From NCBI GenBank assembly GCA_017407725.1, contig JAFQWB010000111.1, forward strand, positions 1-8,983: a stretch of 8,983 nucleotides of DNA, given 5' to 3'. The stretch's first letter is position 1, and each line of letters begins with the position of its first letter. This document shows, in pieces, positions 349 through 8,983 of this stretch. This DNA comes from Clostridia bacterium (GTDB taxonomy: Bacteria > Bacillota_A > Clostridia > Oscillospirales > CAG-272). Under the pieces are notes generated by a model. It did not search any database. It was not told the DNA's origin and worked only from the letters and a program-made list of their open reading frames with translations. The position numbers were made by a program, and so were the translations under genes.

Positions 349-377
349 TTGAAAAAAGGAAAAAAGTGTGGTATAAT
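349..377 (+). promoter_or_regulatory. Sigma-A-type promoter of the opp operon
   Basis: TTGAAA (349-354) and a perfect TATAAT (372-377) are separated by exactly 17 bp. A TG dinucleotide at 369-370 adds an extended -10 element. Transcription would begin near 384, giving a leader of about 158 nt before the oppA ATG. The near-consensus match suggests strong expression, as expected for an abundant binding lipoprotein. A second TTGATA at 343-348 is too far (23 bp) from the -10 to be the better choice. Confidence 0.85.
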
Positions 378-528
378 ATACGGACAAATTGGTGAATTAT
401 ATTGCAAATGCGTGTATAGAAAGGTTTGCCGTTTGTTTTTTTATTCGATTGTTACGACAGGTCATGGGCGTAGCGAATACGCTGTGCTGAATCACTTGTG
501 TACCAATAAATTTTCATTATAATTTTAT

Positions 529-533
529 GGAGG
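529..533 (+). promoter_or_regulatory. Ribosome binding site that fixes the oppA start
   Basis: GGAGG lies 8 bp before the ATG at 542. The upstream in-frame ATG at 527 overlaps this Shine-Dalgarno sequence and has no site of its own. Starting at 542 also gives a canonical lipoprotein signal beginning MKRIVAILL, whereas 527 would add an acidic MEEFT prefix in front of the basic residues. Confidence 0.85.
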
Positions 534-541
534 AATTTACC

Positions 542-2830
542 ATGAAGAGAATAGTAGCAATACTTCTCGTAGCTGTTATGCTTCTTTCTGTTGTTGCGTG
601 CTCCAAGAAGACACCCACAACAACTGCAGGCACAACAACCGGTGGCAATAGCGCTGTTGTTACTCCCGGTACAGATTACTATGTAATCGAGCTCAAGAAT
701 TTTGAGGATTATGCAGACAAGGAAATTGCAAATCTTTCTAACCTTACTGTTGGTAAGGAATACGGCGCAGACAAGGATTACATTTCCGTATACGAAAAGT
801 TCGGAAGTGATATCAAGATCACTGATGTAATCGAAGACAAGGAAACAGGAACAGCATACATTGAAAAGGACGGCAAGCTCTACACACTCGGCCTTGACTT
901 CCTTACAATGGCAATGGTTTACAACGTAGCAGTTCCCGCAGAGCTCGACGGCTGCACAGCTGACGATGTTTATGCTACGTGGTGGAGACTCTACATCCAG
1001 AGATGGAATGCGCTCCTTCCCGAGATTCCGCTTTACTCCAATGAGTATTACGATCTCTACAATTCTAAGATCACAGGCGTTCAGGAGAACCCCACAAACC
1101 CCTATTGGGGCGTTGCTAACGCTCTTATTGACTGGACTTCCACAAAGGCTGACAAGTCTTTCATAATCGGTAACTCTACCGACCTTTCCGGTAAGTTCAG
1201 ATATGCTGCATTCGGTTCTACATCTCCCGGTGCTGCTGATAACGACGTTGCTACCCTTACACAGGGTCTTGAGACAGTTACAACAAACAAAGAAGGTGGC
1301 TACGTATGGAATGATACAGTAGTTGCTTCTCAAAAGGAAACAGAGAATGCAGACGGATCCAAGACCTTTGAGATCACCATCAAGGAAGGTCTTAAGTTCT
1401 CCGACGGTTCTGCAATTACCGCAAAGAACTACGTTATCACATCACTCGTATTCTCCACACCCGTTGCAGCTCAGGCAGCAGGTAAGGACCATCAGTCTGC
1501 TATGACTATTGTTGGTTACGACACATTCAAGAACTACACAGGCGTAGAGGCTGAAGGCGCTACAAAGTACCTCTCCGGTCTCCGTCTCCTCGGCGATTAC
1601 ACATTCTCTGTAACTATCGCTGCAGATTATCTCCCCTACTTCTATGATATCGGTTACGCTTCCTTCTCACCCAGCTATACCAAGCTTTGGCTCGGCAATG
1701 CTGACGTTAAGGATGACGGAAACGGATGCTACATTACAGAAGATTTCTTCGCAAAGAACGGCGAGGACTATACAATGGCAGCACACGTTAAGGCTTCCGC
1801 TCTTAACACAGATACAACATATCCCTACTCCGGCGCATACGTTGTAGAAAGCTATGATGCTTCCACAAAGACAGCAACACTTAAGGTAAACACATATTTC
1901 GCAGGTAACTACGAAGGAACAAAGCCCGCAATCGAGAAGATCATCTACAAGAAGATCATCACAACAACTCAGCTTGAAGATGCTAAGGCAGGAAACCTCG
2001 ACTTTATCGCAGGTATCACAGGCGGAGACGAGACAAACGAAGCACTTACATTTATCGAAGAGTCCAACGGCGGATTTGCATGCATCCACTACGGCCGCGC
2101 AGGATACGGAAAGCTTGGTTTCAGAGCTGACTTCGGTCCCGTACAGTTCACAGAGGTTCGTCAGGCTATCGCTTACTGTATGGACAGAGCTACCTTCGCT
2201 AAGGACTTCACAGGCGGCTTCGGCGGCGTTGTTGACGGACCTTACTATAAGGGCTCATGGATGTACAAGCACGCAATGGCACAGGGTATGCAGCTTGATG
2301 CATATGCTACATCACTCGATGCAGCAATCAAGGCTCTTGAAGACGGCGGCTGGGTATATGCAGCTGACGGAAGTGCATACACATCCGGTGTACGTTACAA
2401 GAAAATAGCAGATGCAGAAATGCAGGATAGCGACAAGACATTCCAGTCCAAAGACGGAGCATACAAGACAGTTAAGGTCGGCGAATACTGGTATATGCCT
2501 CTCGTAATCAACTGGTACGGCACATCTGATAACCCCTTCACAGATCTCCTTGTAACAGGATTCATGGAGAATGATAACATTGCAGCTGCAGGTATGGTAG
2601 TTCAGAACACAATCGGTGAGTTCAACCCCATGCTTGACGAGCTTTACCAGATGCCCGTTTACGGTTACTATGCAGGTACACCTCTTTACGGCGCATTCAA
2701 CTTCGCTACAGGATTCAACAGCGCAGTTTACGATTTCTCATGGAACATGACAATCGATCCTTCAATGTATGATAACTACTCATACTTCTATCTTAAGGAT
2801 GCTGCTGATTTCTATTGGAATGCAAAGTAA
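542..2830 (+). CDS. oppA: Peptide ABC transporter substrate-binding lipoprotein (SBP_bac_5 family), apparently circularly permuted
   Basis: This 762-residue protein is the probable extracytoplasmic peptide receptor of the transporter. Residues 1-20 form a lipoprotein signal (two basic residues, a hydrophobic core, lipobox VVAC with Cys20). A Thr/Gly-rich linker follows at about 23-43. SBP_bac_5 hallmarks are visible: an N-lobe-like start IIGNSTDLSGKF at 208-219, the family signature around GLKFSDGSAITAKNYV (283-298), and VRQAIAYCMDRATF (539-552). The odd part is residues 138-198. There WWRLYIQRWNALLPEIPLYS and the following YYDLYN resemble the segment that normally ends clostridial members of this family. 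The protein's own C-terminus stops at YWNAK without such a segment. This suggests circular permutation, or duplication with loss. The length exceeds the usual 500-600 residues. Lys codons are mostly AAG and Leu mostly CTT/CTC by eye, as in highly expressed genes. The family call is firm, but the exact substrate is not known. Confidence 0.9.
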   Translation: MKRIVAILLVAVMLLSVVACSKKTPTTTAGTTTGGNSAVVTPGTDYYVIELKNFEDYADKEIANLSNLTVGKEYGADKDYISVYEKFGSDIKITDVIEDKETGTAYIEKDGKLYTLGLDFLTMAMVYNVAVPAELDGCTADDVYATWWRLYIQRWNALLPEIPLYSNEYYDLYNSKITGVQENPTNPYWGVANALIDWTSTKADKSFIIGNSTDLSGKFRYAAFGSTSPGAADNDVATLTQGLETVTTNKEGGYVWNDTVVASQKETENADGSKTFEITIKEGLKFSDGSAITAKNYVITSLVFSTPVAAQAAGKDHQSAMTIVGYDTFKNYTGVEAEGATKYLSGLRLLGDYTFSVTIAADYLPYFYDIGYASFSPSYTKLWLGNADVKDDGNGCYITEDFFAKNGEDYTMAAHVKASALNTDTTYPYSGAYVVESYDASTKTATLKVNTYFAGNYEGTKPAIEKIIYKKIITTTQLEDAKAGNLDFIAGITGGDETNEALTFIEESNGGFACIHYGRAGYGKLGFRADFGPVQFTEVRQAIAYCMDRATFAKDFTGGFGGVVDGPYYKGSWMYKHAMAQGMQLDAYATSLDAAIKALEDGGWVYAADGSAYTSGVRYKKIADAEMQDSDKTFQSKDGAYKTVKVGEYWYMPLVINWYGTSDNPFTDLLVTGFMENDNIAAAGMVVQNTIGEFNPMLDELYQMPVYGYYAGTPLYGAFNFATGFNSAVYDFSWNMTIDPSMYDNYSYFYLKDAADFYWNAK

Positions 2831-2862
2831 TTCATAAAGAAGCAAGATTATCTTAAATACTT

Positions 2863-2888
2863 CGCAGAGGTGGGAGACCACCTCTGCG
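2863..2888 (+). promoter_or_regulatory. Strong 11-bp stem-loop after oppA
   Basis: CGCAGAGGTGG (2863-2873) pairs perfectly with CCACCTCTGCG (2878-2888) around a GAGA loop, a GNRA-type tetraloop. No T-run follows, so it is not a standard intrinsic terminator. Its place 32 bp after the oppA stop fits an RNA-stabilising hairpin that protects the 3' end of the oppA transcript. This arrangement is well known downstream of binding-protein genes in ABC operons. The structure is seen directly; the function is inferred. Confidence 0.75.
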
Positions 2889-2909
2889 ATGTAGTCTTTA
2901 TCACACTTA

Positions 2910-2939
2910 TCGTCGCCTTATGCTCGGCGGCGAATTTTT
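2910..2939 (+). terminator. Probable intrinsic (possibly partial) terminator between oppA and oppB
   Basis: TCGTCGCC (2910-2917) pairs with GGCGGCGA (2926-2933), one G-U pair included, around an 8-base loop. It is followed by ATTTTT (2934-2939). This is the best terminator shape in the window. The T-run is short and no good promoter for oppB is evident downstream. Partial read-through is therefore likely, which would lower oppBCDF relative to oppA. Confidence 0.6.
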
Positions 2940-3002
2940 GGTATATAAGAGCATTGCGCAATTATGCATTTTTATAAATAAATACTAATTATCCGATAAA
3001 AT

Positions 3003-3081: not shown

Positions 3082-4125
3082 ATGGGAAAATATATACTGA
3101 AAAGATGCGGCTATATGTTACTCGTACTCGTCATATTGTCGTTTCTGATGTTTATGATATATAATCTTATGCCTAATAACCGTGCGTATACAGATGCGAA
3201 AACGTACATTACAGAGCATAAAAAGGAGATCAAGCCGGAGGATCTTGACAGGATATTCGATGAGAAATATCTTGAATATCAGAGAGCCTACGGTACAGAT
3301 ACCAATAATAAAATCGTGAGATATCTGCGCTGGATAGGCGTATATCCGTTATACGACGGATCGTACGACGGACTTTTACAGGGCAATTTCGGATATTCCT
3401 ATGAGTACAGGGACGACGTTATCAACGTCGTCAAAGAACCGATGAAAAACACTATATTTATGAATGTTTTTGCAACAATTCTTGCGCTTGCTATTACTAT
3501 ACCGCTCGGTATCAGATGTGCGGTCAAGCGCGGAAAGGCGCTTGATAGAGTATCGGGAGTCGTATCGATTCTAGGATATTCACTTCCCACCTTCCTTATT
3601 GCAATTGTATTCGTATGGCTCTTCTGCTCAATTCTCGGAATCTTCCCACCATCGGGAATGGAAACACCGGGAAGCGATTTTACGGGCTTCAGATGGTTCC
3701 TCGACAGAATGTATTATATGGCACTTCCGCTTATCGTAATGACCTTCTGCTCGCTCGGAAGTATGACGAGATACGTACGTGCGTCTATGATAGAGGCACT
3801 CTCAATGGATTGCGTAAGAACCGCAAGAGCAAAGGGACTCAGAGAAAAAATAGTTATTTATTCACACGCGTGGAAAAATGCGCTTATTCCCGTAGTAACC
3901 CTCGTTGTCGGATGGTTCCTCGGAATTTTCTCGGGCTCTCTTGTAATCGAGCAGATGTTTGCCATCAATGGAATGGGATACGTTATGTTCGGATCTCTTA
4001 AGACAGCCGACTTTGACGTAGTAATGCTTCTCAACCTCTTCTACGTAGCTCTCGCACTTTTTGGAAACCTTTTAATCGATATAATCTACGGTCTTGTTGA
4101 CCCGAGAGTAAGAGTAAATAAGTAA
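3082..4125 (+). CDS. oppB: Oligopeptide ABC transporter permease OppB
   Basis: This 347-residue integral membrane protein is one half of the translocation channel. About six membrane segments are visible, near residues 9-29, 123-145, 157-187, 211-226, 268-288 and 312-336. The BPD_transp_1 EAA loop, which docks onto the ATPase, is at about 238-270 (EALSMDCVRTARAKG followed by KNALIPV). The family marks EQMFAINGMG (290-299) and VDPRVR (339-344) are present. The first extracytoplasmic loop (about 30-122) contains the usual GNFGYS motif (101-106) and is somewhat long and charged. Opp/Dpp B subunits are typically 305-340 residues, so the length is near normal. The gene follows oppA after a hairpin-rich 251-bp gap and precedes oppC by 14 bp. 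DppB is the main alternative name; peptide specificity cannot be read from the sequence. Confidence 0.93.
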   Translation: MGKYILKRCGYMLLVLVILSFLMFMIYNLMPNNRAYTDAKTYITEHKKEIKPEDLDRIFDEKYLEYQRAYGTDTNNKIVRYLRWIGVYPLYDGSYDGLLQGNFGYSYEYRDDVINVVKEPMKNTIFMNVFATILALAITIPLGIRCAVKRGKALDRVSGVVSILGYSLPTFLIAIVFVWLFCSILGIFPPSGMETPGSDFTGFRWFLDRMYYMALPLIVMTFCSLGSMTRYVRASMIEALSMDCVRTARAKGLREKIVIYSHAWKNALIPVVTLVVGWFLGIFSGSLVIEQMFAINGMGYVMFGSLKTADFDVVMLLNLFYVALALFGNLLIDIIYGLVDPRVRVNK

Positions 4126-4139
4126 TCGGGAGGAACAAA

Positions 4140-6131
4140 ATGAAAAAAGAAAAGAAAAATTCCTCCGGATTATTCGGATGTGTTGGAAATTGGTTCTCCA
4201 GAATGTTTTTCGGCGCAAGCAAGAGGTATGCAGAGGAAATAGAAAACAAAAGTGACGAAGATAAGTCAAAACTTATCGACGTTGAAGAAATAATCAGCCC
4301 CGGAAAGCAGGTTTTCAAGCGCTTCTGCCAGAGAAAAATGGCAATCTTTGCGGTGTTTGTGGTAATTGCGATGTTCCTTACAGTATTTATCGCACCCTGC
4401 TTCATGCCCAATTACAGTGACACTTATACAGAAACAACACAGCAGAATATTCCTCCTACAATGAGCTTTCTTTCTGTTCCCAGGGGACTCAGAAACGATA
4501 TAAAGATGATCGACACCTACGGAACGTTCACGGTTGGACTTTCGAATGCAGGTAAAGTATATGTCTGGGGTCACACCAAGCTTGGAACAACGGGAATAGA
4601 CATATCTGACATACCCGATGCCGTAAAGAATGCCAAGATTGAGTTCGTTGCTGCAGGATATGACCATATCGTTGCTATAGATTCCACCGGTAAGGTACAC
4701 GCGTGGGGTAACAACAGACTTGGTCAGTACGGATACTTCGATCCTTCAAATCCTCAGAACAGCAACATTATGACGATGCCTTACGCACTTGCAACGGGCG
4801 GAAGACTTGATATATCACAGGTAAAAAAGCTTGATTGCGGATATCAGGCAACCGTAATTCTTATGAATGATGGAAGTTACTTTATCTGGGGTAATAAGAA
4901 TGCATACGGAAATCTTGAGCGCTTTGTTGGAGGCAAGAAATTCGTTGACATTTCCTTTACTCTCAATAACGTTGTTGCAATAGATGCAAGCTCTCCTAAC
5001 TACGTGTACACCGCAATGAAGGGTGTTTACGGACTTGTACGAGATAACCTTACAACAGCAAAGGGCGTTGATATCAAGGAATATATCGCAGATCGCTCGA
5101 TAGTTTCTCTTTCAACCACAAACAATATGGTATGCCTCATTCTCTCCGACGGATCGGTGTGCTTTGCGGGCGATATCGTGGCGGGATATTCGGGACTTCC
5201 CACACTTGAAGAGGGAGAAACTGTAATACAGGCTGAGGGCGGAATCTATCACTTTACATTTCTTACAAGCGAAGGAAACGTTTATTCTATAGGAAGCAAT
5301 AAGCTTAATCAGTGTAAGGTTCCCGCAAAGGCAAGTAACGGAAAGGTAACAAAGATATTTGCAGGCTCGCTTCAGAGCTATGCTGTAGACGAGGACTCGG
5401 ATCTTGTTGCTAAATGGGGTCTTAAAGGCTATATTTTCGGAACAGATAAGACGGGAGCTCCCATATTTGAGAGAGTTATCAACGGCGGTAAAATGACAAT
5501 GACAGTCGGTGCCGTTGCCGTTATTATTTCATCTATAATCGGTATTCTCGTAGGATGTATATCGGGTTATTTCGGTGGAAAGGTCGATATAATTTTGATG
5601 AGAGTGACCGAGATATTCTCGGCAATACCGTTCTTACCCTTTGCGCTTATCCTTTCGGCGCTTATGGGACGTATGACAATTTCCGAGACAATGAGAATAT
5701 TTATTATAATGTGTATTCTCGGTGTACTCTCGTGGACAGGACTTGCCCGTCTTGTAAGAGGACAGGTTCTCGTTGCAAGAGAAAACGAATACGTTATGGC
5801 TGCAAAGGCTATGGGTGTTAAGGAAAGCAGAATTGCCTTCAAGCATATTCTTCCTAACGTAATCAGCGTAATCGTAGTTACACTTACACTCGACTTTGCA
5901 GGATGTATGCTTACAGAGTCATCCCTTTCCTACCTTGGTTTCGGAGTACAGTATCCGAGACCTACGTGGGGTAATATGCTCAACGCGGCAAGCAACTCTA
6001 TCACTATTAAGAATTTCTGGTGGCAGTGGGTATTCCCTGCGCTCTTCCTTGCTGTTACAACAATTTGTATAAACATCATCGGAGATACCATAAGAGATGC
6101 TATCGACCCCAAGTCGAATTCCGAAAGATAA
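4140..6131 (+). CDS. oppC: Oligopeptide ABC transporter permease OppC carrying an extracytoplasmic RCC1-like beta-propeller
   Basis: This is the second channel subunit, 663 residues against about 300 for ordinary OppC. The start is set by GGGAGG (4128-4133) 6 bp before the ATG. Residues 1-65 are a charged cytoplasmic extension, longer than usual. TM1 is at about 67-88. A large insert at about 112-428 contains seven RCC1-like repeats. The normal OppC sequence resumes at FGTDKTG (433-439), and the remaining membrane segments lie near 450-477, 491-509, 517-535, 571-590 and 627-650. The EAA loop is clear at 546-573 (VAAKAMG-like core YVMAAKAMGV, then HILPN). SYLGFG (597-602) and GDTIRDAIDP (648-657) are also family marks. 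The usual GTDxxGRD motif reads G-A-P at 439-441 instead of GRD. By topology the propeller would face outward, beside the OppA docking surface. The reading frame is unbroken throughout, and the gene sits between oppB and oppD with short gaps. The permease call is very secure; the propeller's function is unknown. Confidence 0.93.
   Translation: MKKEKKNSSGLFGCVGNWFSRMFFGASKRYAEEIENKSDEDKSKLIDVEEIISPGKQVFKRFCQRKMAIFAVFVVIAMFLTVFIAPCFMPNYSDTYTETTQQNIPPTMSFLSVPRGLRNDIKMIDTYGTFTVGLSNAGKVYVWGHTKLGTTGIDISDIPDAVKNAKIEFVAAGYDHIVAIDSTGKVHAWGNNRLGQYGYFDPSNPQNSNIMTMPYALATGGRLDISQVKKLDCGYQATVILMNDGSYFIWGNKNAYGNLERFVGGKKFVDISFTLNNVVAIDASSPNYVYTAMKGVYGLVRDNLTTAKGVDIKEYIADRSIVSLSTTNNMVCLILSDGSVCFAGDIVAGYSGLPTLEEGETVIQAEGGIYHFTFLTSEGNVYSIGSNKLNQCKVPAKASNGKVTKIFAGSLQSYAVDEDSDLVAKWGLKGYIFGTDKTGAPIFERVINGGKMTMTVGAVAVIISSIIGILVGCISGYFGGKVDIILMRVTEIFSAIPFLPFALILSALMGRMTISETMRIFIIMCILGVLSWTGLARLVRGQVLVARENEYVMAAKAMGVKESRIAFKHILPNVISVIVVTLTLDFAGCMLTESSLSYLGFGVQYPRPTWGNMLNAASNSITIKNFWWQWVFPALFLAVTTICINIIGDTIRDAIDPKSNSER
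4497..5423 (+). other. RCC1-like seven-repeat domain inserted in OppC (residues about 120-428)
   Basis: Seven repeats of the form hydrophobic strand, x-x-(D/E)G-x-(V)(Y/H)-x-(W)G can be read. They centre on residues 128-152 (GKVYVWGHTKLG), 175-198 (GKVHAWGNNRLGQYG), 236-258 (GSYFIWGNKNAYG), 277-298 (degenerate, NYVYTAMKG), 329-350 (GSVCFAGDIVAG), 370-392 (GNVYSIGSNKLNQ) and 411-434 (DLVAKWG). Spacing is about 41-61 residues. RCC1 proteins form seven-bladed propellers with repeats of about 50-60 residues, so the count fits one complete propeller. Such propellers usually bind proteins. The last blade runs straight into the GTD motif of OppC, so the domain is embedded in the permease and not fused at an end. 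The repeats are visible directly; the fold and binding role are inferred. Confidence 0.85.
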
Positions 6132-6143
6132 GGAGGGTGAAAG

Positions 6144-7205
6144 ATGCAAAACGAAAATATCGAAAAGACAGAAAGCTCTGCTGAGCAGAACGAGTATTTA
6201 CTTGAAGTAAAAAATCTTCACACCTTCTTCAAAACCAAAAAGGGAATTGTAAAGGCGGTAAACGATGTTTCTTATTCACTCAAAGCGGGTAAGACGATCG
6301 GTATCGTTGGTGAATCGGGATCGGGAAAATCGGTTTCTGCAATGAGCATACTCCGTCTTCTTGACGGTAACGGATATATCGACAGCGGAGAAATATTCTT
6401 TGAAGGAAAAGAACTTACAAAGCTTCCTACCGAAGAACTCTATAATATCAGAGGAAATGCGATCTCGGTTATATTCCAGGAGCCCATGACCTCTCTTAAC
6501 CCCGTATTCACGGTTGCCAAGCAGCTCTCAGAGCCTTTCATGATCCATCAGGGAATGAATAAAAAAGAGGCGAGAGAGCACGCTCTTGAAATGCTTTACG
6601 ACGTTCAGATCCCCAACCCCGAGGCTGTAATGAAGCAGTATCCTCATCAGCTTTCGGGCGGTATGCGTCAGAGAGTTATGATTGCAATGGCACTTGCCTG
6701 CAAGCCGGGAATTCTTATTGCAGACGAGCCCACAACAGCGCTTGACGTTACCATTCAGGCGCAGATATTAAAGCTTATGAACGACCTCCAGAGAGAAAAG
6801 GGAACGTCGATCATATTTATCACTCACGATCTCGGTGTTATAAACGAGATGGCAGACGACGTCGTAGTTATGTACTGCGGACAGGTCGTTGAAAAGGCAA
6901 GCGCACGTACGATATTCACAAACTGCGAAAAGAGCCATCCCTATACCGAGGGACTTATGTATTCCATCCCGAGAATAGACAATATAACCGCAAAGCTTGA
7001 GCCTATTCCCGGAGCTGTACCGCATCCTCTTGCACTTCCCAAGGGATGTAAATTTGCACCCAGGTGTAAGTACTGCACACAAAAATGTGTAGATGAAGAG
7101 CCCGCGCTCGTGGATGTTGGAGACGGTCAGCTTATAAGATGTTTTTATCCTGAAAAGAAGGAGAGACTTAGCGATGAGCACAAACAAATTACTGTCAATA
7201 ACTAA
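6144..7205 (+). CDS. oppD: Oligopeptide ABC transporter ATP-binding protein OppD
   Basis: This 353-residue cytoplasmic ATPase pairs with OppF to power transport. All motifs are in order: Walker A GESGSGKS (56-63), Q-loop FQEPMTSLNP (111-120), signature LSGGMRQR (170-177), Walker B with catalytic Glu in ILIADEPTTALD (190-201), and the switch His in THD (227-229). The C-terminal oligopeptide-family region has GCKFAPRC (301-308), Cys315 and Cys333, the four-cysteine set known to hold a 4Fe-4S cluster in Dpp/Opp ATPases. There is one further Cys at 311. Length is normal for OppD, with no insert between Walker A and the Q-loop, unlike its partner here. The start follows GGAGGG (6132-6137) by 6 bp, and that Shine-Dalgarno directly abuts the oppC stop codon. 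Its last 32 bp overlap oppF, which points to translational coupling. Confidence 0.95.
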   Translation: MQNENIEKTESSAEQNEYLLEVKNLHTFFKTKKGIVKAVNDVSYSLKAGKTIGIVGESGSGKSVSAMSILRLLDGNGYIDSGEIFFEGKELTKLPTEELYNIRGNAISVIFQEPMTSLNPVFTVAKQLSEPFMIHQGMNKKEAREHALEMLYDVQIPNPEAVMKQYPHQLSGGMRQRVMIAMALACKPGILIADEPTTALDVTIQAQILKLMNDLQREKGTSIIFITHDLGVINEMADDVVVMYCGQVVEKASARTIFTNCEKSHPYTEGLMYSIPRIDNITAKLEPIPGAVPHPLALPKGCKFAPRCKYCTQKCVDEEPALVDVGDGQLIRCFYPEKKERLSDEHKQITVNN

Positions 7206-8772
7206 TCTTAAGAAGTATTTTCCCATCGCAAAGAGCTCTATCTTTCAGAAGGAACAGCTTTACGTAAGAGCGAACGAGGATATTACCATCGATATATACG
7301 AGGGCGAAACTCTCGGTATCGTTGGTGAATCGGGTTGCGGAAAATCCACACTCGGAAGAGTCCTTCTTCAGCTTTATGAGCAGACTGCGGGAACAACGAT
7401 GTACTACGGAACAACTCTTGATGCGTTTGCTCCCTCGTACATTGAGGATACTCTTAAGAATTACGGAAAATACCTTAAAAGACTCAGAAAGGCACAGGCA
7501 AAAAGAGCCGATCTTGATGCAAAGGTTGCAGCCGTTGGCGAAGATAATGCCGACTTCTTTCTTCTTCAAAACAGAAATCTTGCCGTTTGCGAGGAAAAGA
7601 CCGCTTTTGATCATATTATAAAGATCGTTGGCGGATATTACGTTGTTGACGGCGCAGAGGGTGACAGAGGCAGAGCTTGCATCCTTGATATTCACCGTAT
7701 GAATATCGCAAAGAATAAGGTTCTTGCAAAGCTCAATGACGTCAATAACGAGCTTTCTCACGTCGAAGAGGGCGGAGTTGACAAAAAAGAAGCAGGAAAG
7801 TTCACAAAGCTTTCAAATGCCAAGGCAAAGCTTGAAGCAAGACTTGCCGATATTGACAAAAACATAAGCGAAAGACAGGCAAAGGCGGATGCTATTCGTG
7901 CGCTTCATAAGGACGACAGCGAATTTATGAAGTACGAGGCTATGAGAGATTCGGGAATCGATCTTTCAAGACTTAAGTATTCCGAAATGCGTGTTCTTCG
8001 TAAGGATCTTCAGATAATTTTCCAGGATCCGTATTCAAGCCTTAATCCGAGATTCACAATAGGTCAGATCATCGAAGAGGGTCTTACAACTCACAAGATG
8101 TTCAGCCACGGATCTCAGAAGATGAAGGAGCACATCATAGATACTATGGAAAAGTGCGGACTTCAGGATTATATGATCCACAGATATCCGCATCAGTTCT
8201 CGGGCGGTCAGCGTCAGAGAGTTGCCATTGCAAGAGCACTTGCTGTTCAGCCTAAGTTTATTGTGTGCGATGAGTGCGTATCCGCGCTTGACGTTTCGAT
8301 ACAGTCGCAGATAATAAATCTTCTTCAGGAGCTCAAGGAAAAGGAAAAGCTCACGTATATGTTCATATCTCACGACCTTTCGGTTGTAAGATATATTTCC
8401 GACAGAATATGCGTAATGTACCTCGGAAACGTGGTTGAGCTTACAGACGCCGCAACAATGTTCAAGGATCCCAGACATCCTTATACGGTTGCTCTTCTTT
8501 CGTCCATTCCCACAACAGATATGGATAGCCTTAACAAGGAAAGAATTATTCTTGAGGGTAATATACCCAGCCCCATAAAGCCTCCGTCGGGATGTAAGTT
8601 CCACACAAGATGCTATATGGCGTGTGAGAAATGTAAGAGAGTACCGCCTCCGCTCAGAGAAATTGAGCCCGGACACTTCGTTGCATGTCACCTTCCCGAG
8701 AAAAAGCTTGACGAAAACGGAAATTATCTTTTCGAGATTCAGAAGAGCGAAAAGAAATCCACAAGAGGCTGA
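7174..8772 (+). CDS. oppF: Oligopeptide ABC transporter ATP-binding protein OppF with a large internal insertion
   Basis: This is the second ATPase of the complex, 532 residues against about 310-340 usually. Walker [10 protein letters not shown] (51-59) is followed by the normal [14 protein letters not shown]. About 180 unrelated residues (roughly 80-262) come next, after which the OppF sequence resumes with [20 protein letters not shown] (275-294, including the Q-loop). The signature FSGGQRQR (342-349), Walker [12 protein letters not shown] (363-373) and switch SHD (399-401) are intact. The usual DEP of Walker B reads DEC, but the catalytic Glu367 is kept. The 4Fe-4S region has GCKFHTRC (473-480), Cys484, Cys487 and VACH (503-506). 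The start lies 10 bp after AAGGAG (7158-7163), inside the end of oppD in another frame. All catalytic residues are present, so activity is expected. DppF is the alternative name. Confidence 0.94.
7411..7959 (+). other. Insertion of about 180 residues in OppF between Walker A and the Q-loop
   Basis: Residues about 80-262 have no counterpart in standard OppF, where the Walker A helix, a beta-hairpin and the Q-loop follow closely. The insert has Lys/Ala/Leu/Glu-rich, coiled-coil-like stretches at about 90-121, 176-200 and 205-245. Between them is a more globular part at about 128-175 with a [15 protein letters not shown] core. It lies in the ABC-beta subdomain region, which is on the periphery of the nucleotide-binding domain, so it could protrude without blocking dimerisation. 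I do not recognise it as a known domain. The limits are approximate to about 10 residues. Confidence 0.8.
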
Positions 8773-8795: not shown

Positions 8796-8983
8796 ATGAT
8801 CTTTAAGAGATTGAGAAAGTCAACAAAGGAAGAAGAGAGAAAATTCAGAGAAGACCTTGCAAAAGTGAAAGGCAATCCGTTCTTAACTGAAGAGGAACTA
8901 CAGCCTACGGAGATTACAGAGATAGCCGATAAGGCATTGACCTTTGAACTCCAGTTAAAGGCTCTGAAGCAGATAGAAGCACA
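8796..8983 (+). CDS. Unknown protein, N-terminal part (3' end outside window)
   Basis: An ATG at 8796 follows GGGAG (8784-8788) by 7 bp and opens a frame that stays open for 62 codons to the window edge. The visible part starts MIFKRLRKSTKEEERKFRED. It is highly charged and mostly helical in character, with a basic N-terminus and a second helix-like stretch ending ALKQIEA. There is no signal peptide or membrane segment so far. It begins 23 bp after the oppF stop with no terminator between, so it is probably cotranscribed with opp. Codon use (TTG, TTA and CTA for Leu) seems less biased than in oppA, by eye. I do not recognise the family. It could be an accessory factor of the transporter or an unrelated passenger. 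Confidence 0.7.
   Translation, partial: MIFKRLRKSTKEEERKFREDLAKVKGNPFLTEEELQPTEITEIADKALTFELQLKALKQIEA

Follow-up and report, generated by a model that had tools for sequence, protein, structure and literature searches.

We find that the permease subunit OppC encoded in the window (the whole 8,983-nucleotide stretch of DNA analysed here) almost certainly carries, between its first transmembrane segment (TM1) and the GTD motif, an insert predicted to fold as a seven-bladed propeller of the RCC1/BLIP-II type. The first-pass annotation of this DNA had proposed, at 4497..5423 (OppC residues 120-428), that a peptide permease bears a propeller in its TM1-GTD loop; fold prediction and many homologues bear this out, and the propeller is now placed at residues 121-427. 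Beyond that annotation we report an apparent circular permutation of the partner OppA, a fusion that extends across a clade, and a different large insert, at nearly the same site, in another OppC clade. This is a real and conserved variant of the oligopeptide importer that is undescribed as far as our searches reach: in one open-access collection no paper was found pairing OppC with RCC1, and nothing relevant to RCC1-permease fusion, permuted binding proteins or domain insertion appeared among the titles and abstract openings listed. A textbook importer can evidently have its outer face rebuilt, by an RCC1 propeller in one OppC group, by another domain in a second, and by a permuted OppA nested in the first.

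Locus and architecture of the OppC propeller

The window holds a complete oppABCDF set, its five opp genes arranged in series on the + strand, and the order oppA-B-C-D-F is kept in all fused loci long enough to display it. The features are as follows.

349..377, + strand: promoter-like site 5' of oppA (11/12 consensus matches)
527..2830, + strand: oppA, encoding a lipoprotein-like SBP_bac_5 peptide-binding protein of 767 aa whose alignments indicate a circular permutation
2862-2889 and 2910-2933, + strand: two hairpins between oppA and oppB (RNA fold of 2831-3000, z -5.5)
3082..4125, + strand: oppB, permease subunit, 347 aa
3172..3417, + strand: OppB residues 31-112 (bounds by eye), taken to be the TM1-TM2 loop, where DppB has its scoop motif
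4140..6131, + strand: oppC, 663-aa permease subunit that contains the propeller
4335..4403, + strand: OppC TM1, residues 66-88 (model helix, hydropathy)
4410..4499, + strand: conserved linker from TM1 to blade 1, OppC residues 91-120
4500..5420, + strand: predicted seven-bladed RCC1/BLIP-II propeller, OppC residues 121-427 (domain search, predicted model, fold matches)
5421..5447, + strand: junction LKGYIFGTD, OppC residues 428-436, joining the last blade straight to the GTD motif
5463..6113, + strand: OppC permease core, residues 442-658 (BPD_transp_1 at 468-658; match to 8z21_B)
6144..7205, + strand: oppD, ATPase with oligo_HPY C-terminal region
7174..8772, + strand: oppF, ATPase with oligo_HPY C-terminal region, 532 aa
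7426..7947, + strand: insert within OppF, lying between Walker A and the Q-loop side (about residues 85-258, limits set by eye)

The permease parts of OppC are recognised by Pfam on both sides of the insert, with OppC_N at residues 53-106 (36.6 bits, cut-off 23.9) and BPD_transp_1 at residues 468-658 (113.6 bits, cut-off 26.4), and the protein has the fold of Opp/Dpp-type OppC subunits. The NCBIfam equivalog Opp4C was the best of the listed models at 299.6 bits, below its cut-off of 350. Between these parts, RCC1-type Pfam matches span from residue 102 up to the permease domain; RCC1_2 (77.1 bits) and RCC1 (37.5 bits) both exceed their cut-offs, and WD40_RLD scores 112.3 bits, under its cut-off of 150. 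The profile search and the structure prediction of OppC alone, both named as checks in the first-pass annotation, came out in its favour. The predicted OppC model and whole-domain fold matches show the seven blades forming one propeller. Prediction thus supports the structure of this OppC variant well. From the known topology of OppC and DppC the propeller should lie outside the cell.

The window system shares its OppC and OppA folds and its oligo_HPY-type ATPases with E. coli OppBCDF and DppABCDF and with M. tuberculosis OppABCD and DppABCD. At the position of the propeller, however, E. coli OppC has merely 12 unmatched residues, whereas fused OppCs (80 clusters) have 298-394 residues between the equivalents of residues 91 and 434. 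BLIP-II and the propellers of the UVR8/RCC1 type differ in turn from that of OppC in standing outside any membrane permease.

Several further features of the operon can be noted. The promoter-like site is a consensus match only, 10 such sites occurring in the window where 6.6 are expected, and no Rfam family reached its gathering score in the window. The hairpins 3' of oppA could keep oppA expression higher than that of oppBCDF. OppF is matched by ABC_tran as two pieces, the best of them beginning at residue 264 (Pfam), and the insert, roughly 170 residues long, diverges quickly: across relatives its mean distance is 2.28, whereas that of the OppF core is 0.37. An ORF with no assigned function (8796-8983) starts right after oppF and runs off the end of the window.

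Distribution and descent of the fusion

A protein search with the window OppC gave 2155 matches at E<=1e-3, of which the best 120, including the window's own, were examined; a second search with a relative about 42% identical gave 2358 matches, of which 120 were listed. Seventy-five proteins from the first search were used to build a propeller profile, which was matched by 120/120 listed proteins in the first search (worst E 1.5e-134), by 120/120 in the second (worst E 8.8e-42) and by 63/63 fetched fused OppCs (61 distinct; worst E 1.2e-26). It matched none of 23 comparison OppCs, 14 with other inserts and nine ordinary, at E<1e-5. The same fusion is therefore present in many other genomes, and these matches rule out a chimera or mis-assembly. 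Anaerocolumna chitinilytica, Tissierella creatinini, Proteiniborus and Caldicoprobacter are named carriers among the second-search matches listed, and the carriers of the fused importer include some gut clostridia and their relatives. Annotation names of fused OppCs are generic (ABC transporter permease subunit, peptide/nickel transport system permease protein).

A genome scan recovered 32 loci, all from metagenome-assembled or uncultured Bacillota. The fusion was found in 13 of 291 genomes of one class (E<=1e-100), in 14 of 398 genomes of the phylum (E<=1e-193, other matches being to the permease part alone) and in 22 of 300 genomes of one family (E<=1e-160, three of the 22 cut by a contig end), the centre genome G002 being counted in each of the three samples. 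All seven genomes searched whole have one fused OppC, and two of them gave no further match. The possibility of a plasmid-borne element was rejected, as none of 2000 matching plasmid records had one place covering 80% of the query (tblastn); in the five plasmid records listed, similarity reaches no further than the permease part and, at most, about 75 residues ahead of it. Close relatives of the propeller lay inside OppC only: among 291 genomes at E<=1e-12, a limit that shows close relatives alone and also missed two of the 13 fused genomes of the class sample, all 12 places in 11 genomes were OppC frames, and no split form, in which a standalone RCC1 protein would neighbour an opp operon of the ordinary kind, was seen.

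A quick tree (87 rows, 83 different) was built from the permease core after removal of the propeller columns; in it the fused OppCs (64 rows including the window) cluster together with SH-aLRT 98, and the three insert states require three changes. The fused rows had been picked first by score to the window protein, so that other fused groups are possible, and some branches are long. The fusion is shown to characterise one OppC group and to go together with one OppA family.

The other insert came to light in the family sample, where 49 further genomes of the 300 have an OppC frame of 515-737 aa that matches over the permease part only; in proteins from 16 of these 49 genomes the intervening stretch is different and, by eye, repeat-like. 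In the tree 13 such rows form a group of their own (SH-aLRT 100; L061, L066-L080, L102-L114). In this clostridial group the stretch bounded by the alignment columns of window residues 95 and 430 holds 195-405 residues. None of 14 second-insert OppCs matches the propeller profile, and no Pfam family exceeded its cut-off within the insert in three of them or in the divergent OppC of locus L032 (19614-21206). The placement differs as well, since a PSxxH-like motif stays beside GTD after the second insert, whereas in the window type the propeller sits between a PP(S/T) motif and GTD. At nine of the 13 second-insert loci, those where a binding protein was detected, it is 762-820 aa long. In L032 a second opp-like cluster (16150-21843) adjoins the fused operon and encodes OppD-like (746 aa) and OppF-like (428 aa) proteins, both oversized.

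Circular permutation of OppA

The window OppA has an SBP_bac_5 domain and the OppA fold and belongs with the cluster C peptide-binding proteins, but it departs from the standard N-to-C fold order in that a C-terminal segment lies near its N-terminus. Two parts of the chain are concerned.

887..1132, + strand: OppA residues 121-202, the C-terminal segment of sister operons, here near the N-terminus
1142..2803, + strand: OppA residues 206-759, the SBP body, which in sister operons directly follows the signal region

Residues 121-201 match residues 670-738 of the OppA of locus L122 (48% identity, E 2e-21) and residues 149-202 match residues 591-641 of that of L086 (41% identity, E 9e-14), while the body, 206-759, matches L086 OppA at 61-571 (41% identity, E 7e-127). 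These alignments make OppA a circular permutant with respect to both its sister operons and solved OppA structures, with at least 80 C-terminal residues moved to the front; OppA and DppA of E. coli and M. tuberculosis, by contrast, have the standard chain order. An added N-terminal domain was considered for this part of OppA and dropped, because relatives show that most of it is the moved C-terminus; the residues before 121 gave no match by BLASTP. On the tree the permutation is a single change nested in the propeller clade. The permuted OppA and its unpermuted sisters offer a natural experiment on the chain order needed for cargo delivery.

Candidate roles of the propeller

Several roles had been listed for the propeller in the first-pass annotation with no choice made among them. 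The evidence, through indirect signals only, leans to OppA docking, which we consider the most likely reading and to which we give roughly an even chance. According to this model the propeller, standing outside the cell next to the channel mouth, would form a permanent cradle on which the lipid-anchored OppA docks, placed pseudo-symmetrically to the OppB scoop loop, and would hold OppA in register above the channel during peptide hand-over. The permutation of OppA would have come later, in the branch of the window, and a permanent outer cradle may have made it tolerable. Docking is favoured because the propeller fills the OppC loop equivalent to the DppB scoop region, because the fused OppC pairs with its own OppA family, because the propeller co-diverges with OppA and the OppB loop and not with its own core, and because both of its junctions are conserved. 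Against it, ordinary OppC proteins manage without such a domain, and RCC1 propellers bind many kinds of partner, so that the fold leaves the partner unnamed.

The positional argument draws on the structure of DppABCDF, in which the DppB TM1-TM2 region is a scoop motif entering the DppA cleft, and DppB and DppC are unlike each other in their TM1-TM2 regions (PMC12136057). By analogy, OppB residues 31-112 may act as a scoop-like loop. In DppABCDF the outward cavity is enclosed jointly by DppA, DppB and DppC (PMC12136057), which speaks against a propeller that serves as a lid or filter, touching the peptide at the channel mouth and setting a length or sequence preference. The short, conserved link to the GTD segment could let the propeller move with the channel, in favour of such a role; however, the propeller sequence has no identified ligand site, and we regard this reading as distinctly unlikely.

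The nearest working analogue we can name for a docking cradle is MalF P2, like the propeller an outer-loop domain of a permease subunit, and the cradle would work in a mode akin to this binder of maltose-binding protein. MalF P2 belongs to a different permease family and differs from the OppC propeller in loop and fold. Daus 2009 is said to have found that this outer-loop permease domain interacts with the binding protein. If the propeller does dock OppA, then binding proteins have a second kind of receptor borne on a permease, which would give a handle on peptide capture by clostridia.

Conservation was measured in bits per column over 80 clusters from 317 fused proteins. The propeller averages 2.30 bits and the permease core 3.41; the TM1 linker stands at 2.63, and the stretch that ties the last blade to residue 434 (GTD) at 3.65. 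Among the S1-S2 loops, conservation is highest in blades 3 (3.76), 2 (3.34) and 6 (2.92); given the RCC1 fold, these three loops should share one face. Docking would be consistent with a fixed mounting and a binding face, although they do not prove it. Divergence is also faster in the propeller than in the core (mean distances 1.25 and 0.52), as might be expected of a tolerated ornament or spacer with no specific role, but retention of the propeller with conserved junctions in 63/63 fused OppCs (61 distinct) down to 36% identity, a set chosen as relatives of a fused protein in which losses could be missed, makes that account very improbable.

Relatives of the window OppA at E<=1e-60 occur in 16 of the 300 family genomes, and all 16 have a fused OppC nearby on the same contig, a pairing that comes from one family and may be explained by shared descent of a linked operon. 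Six other genomes have a fused OppC; in four of them it lies at a contig end, and in the remaining two OppA was found by a body profile (1e-55 and 5e-58).

Co-divergence was assessed as rank partial r over 58 operons in 300 subsamples, 57 of 1653 operon pairs being dropped for missing data. The propeller gave a median of 0.43 with OppA (2.5-97.5%: 0.29-0.54) and of 0.31 with the OppB loop (0.14-0.47), as against 0.03 with its own core, 0.09 with the OppB core, -0.14 with OppD, 0.10 with the OppF insert and 0.03 with the OppF core. Known partner pairs in the full nine-part set gave 0.60 (OppC core with OppB core) and 0.51 (OppD with OppF core), and the propeller with OppA gave 0.62 for whole genes and linear distances. 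The signal is uneven: unclear in the 24 non-permuted operons, where the propeller gave 0.46 with the OppB core, -0.03 with the OppB loop, 0.28 and 0.13 with the OppA halves and 0.28 with the cytoplasmic OppF insert, and confined to one OppA half in the 34 permuted operons (-0.01 and 0.31). Moreover, the OppB loop with OppA gave only 0.08 and 0.19, despite the contact known in DppABCDF.

The propeller, OppA and the OppB loop are all exoplasmic, and shared selection from outside could be an alternative cause of their co-divergence. Such a reading of co-divergence, as exposure alone, leaves room for a propeller that recognises an outside partner (an extracellular enzyme, a cell-wall polymer or a surface protein) and so sites the importer where peptides are released. 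The conserved S1-S2 loops of blades 2, 3 and 6 would serve this role also, and BLIP-II and RCC1 bind other proteins (PMC9218822). However, in the pooled set it is OppA and the OppB loop that co-diverge with the propeller, and the commonest neighbour family occurs in just eight fused loci, so that no partner gene is generally linked; we think an outside partner unlikely.

Broader than docking itself is the idea of a new importer architecture, in which OppC would bear a permanent OppA receptor, this scaffold would have allowed the permutation, and the TM1-GTD loop would be a general socket for independent clostridial domains that handle the binding protein. We put this forward tentatively, as a possibility we would sooner bet against than for.

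A separate observation concerns the gene family present in eight fused loci (for example L025 4578-6284 and L017 4313-5986), of which the six members displayed lie upstream on the same strand. The two members scanned are Peptidase_M3 proteins, which fits with peptide uptake.
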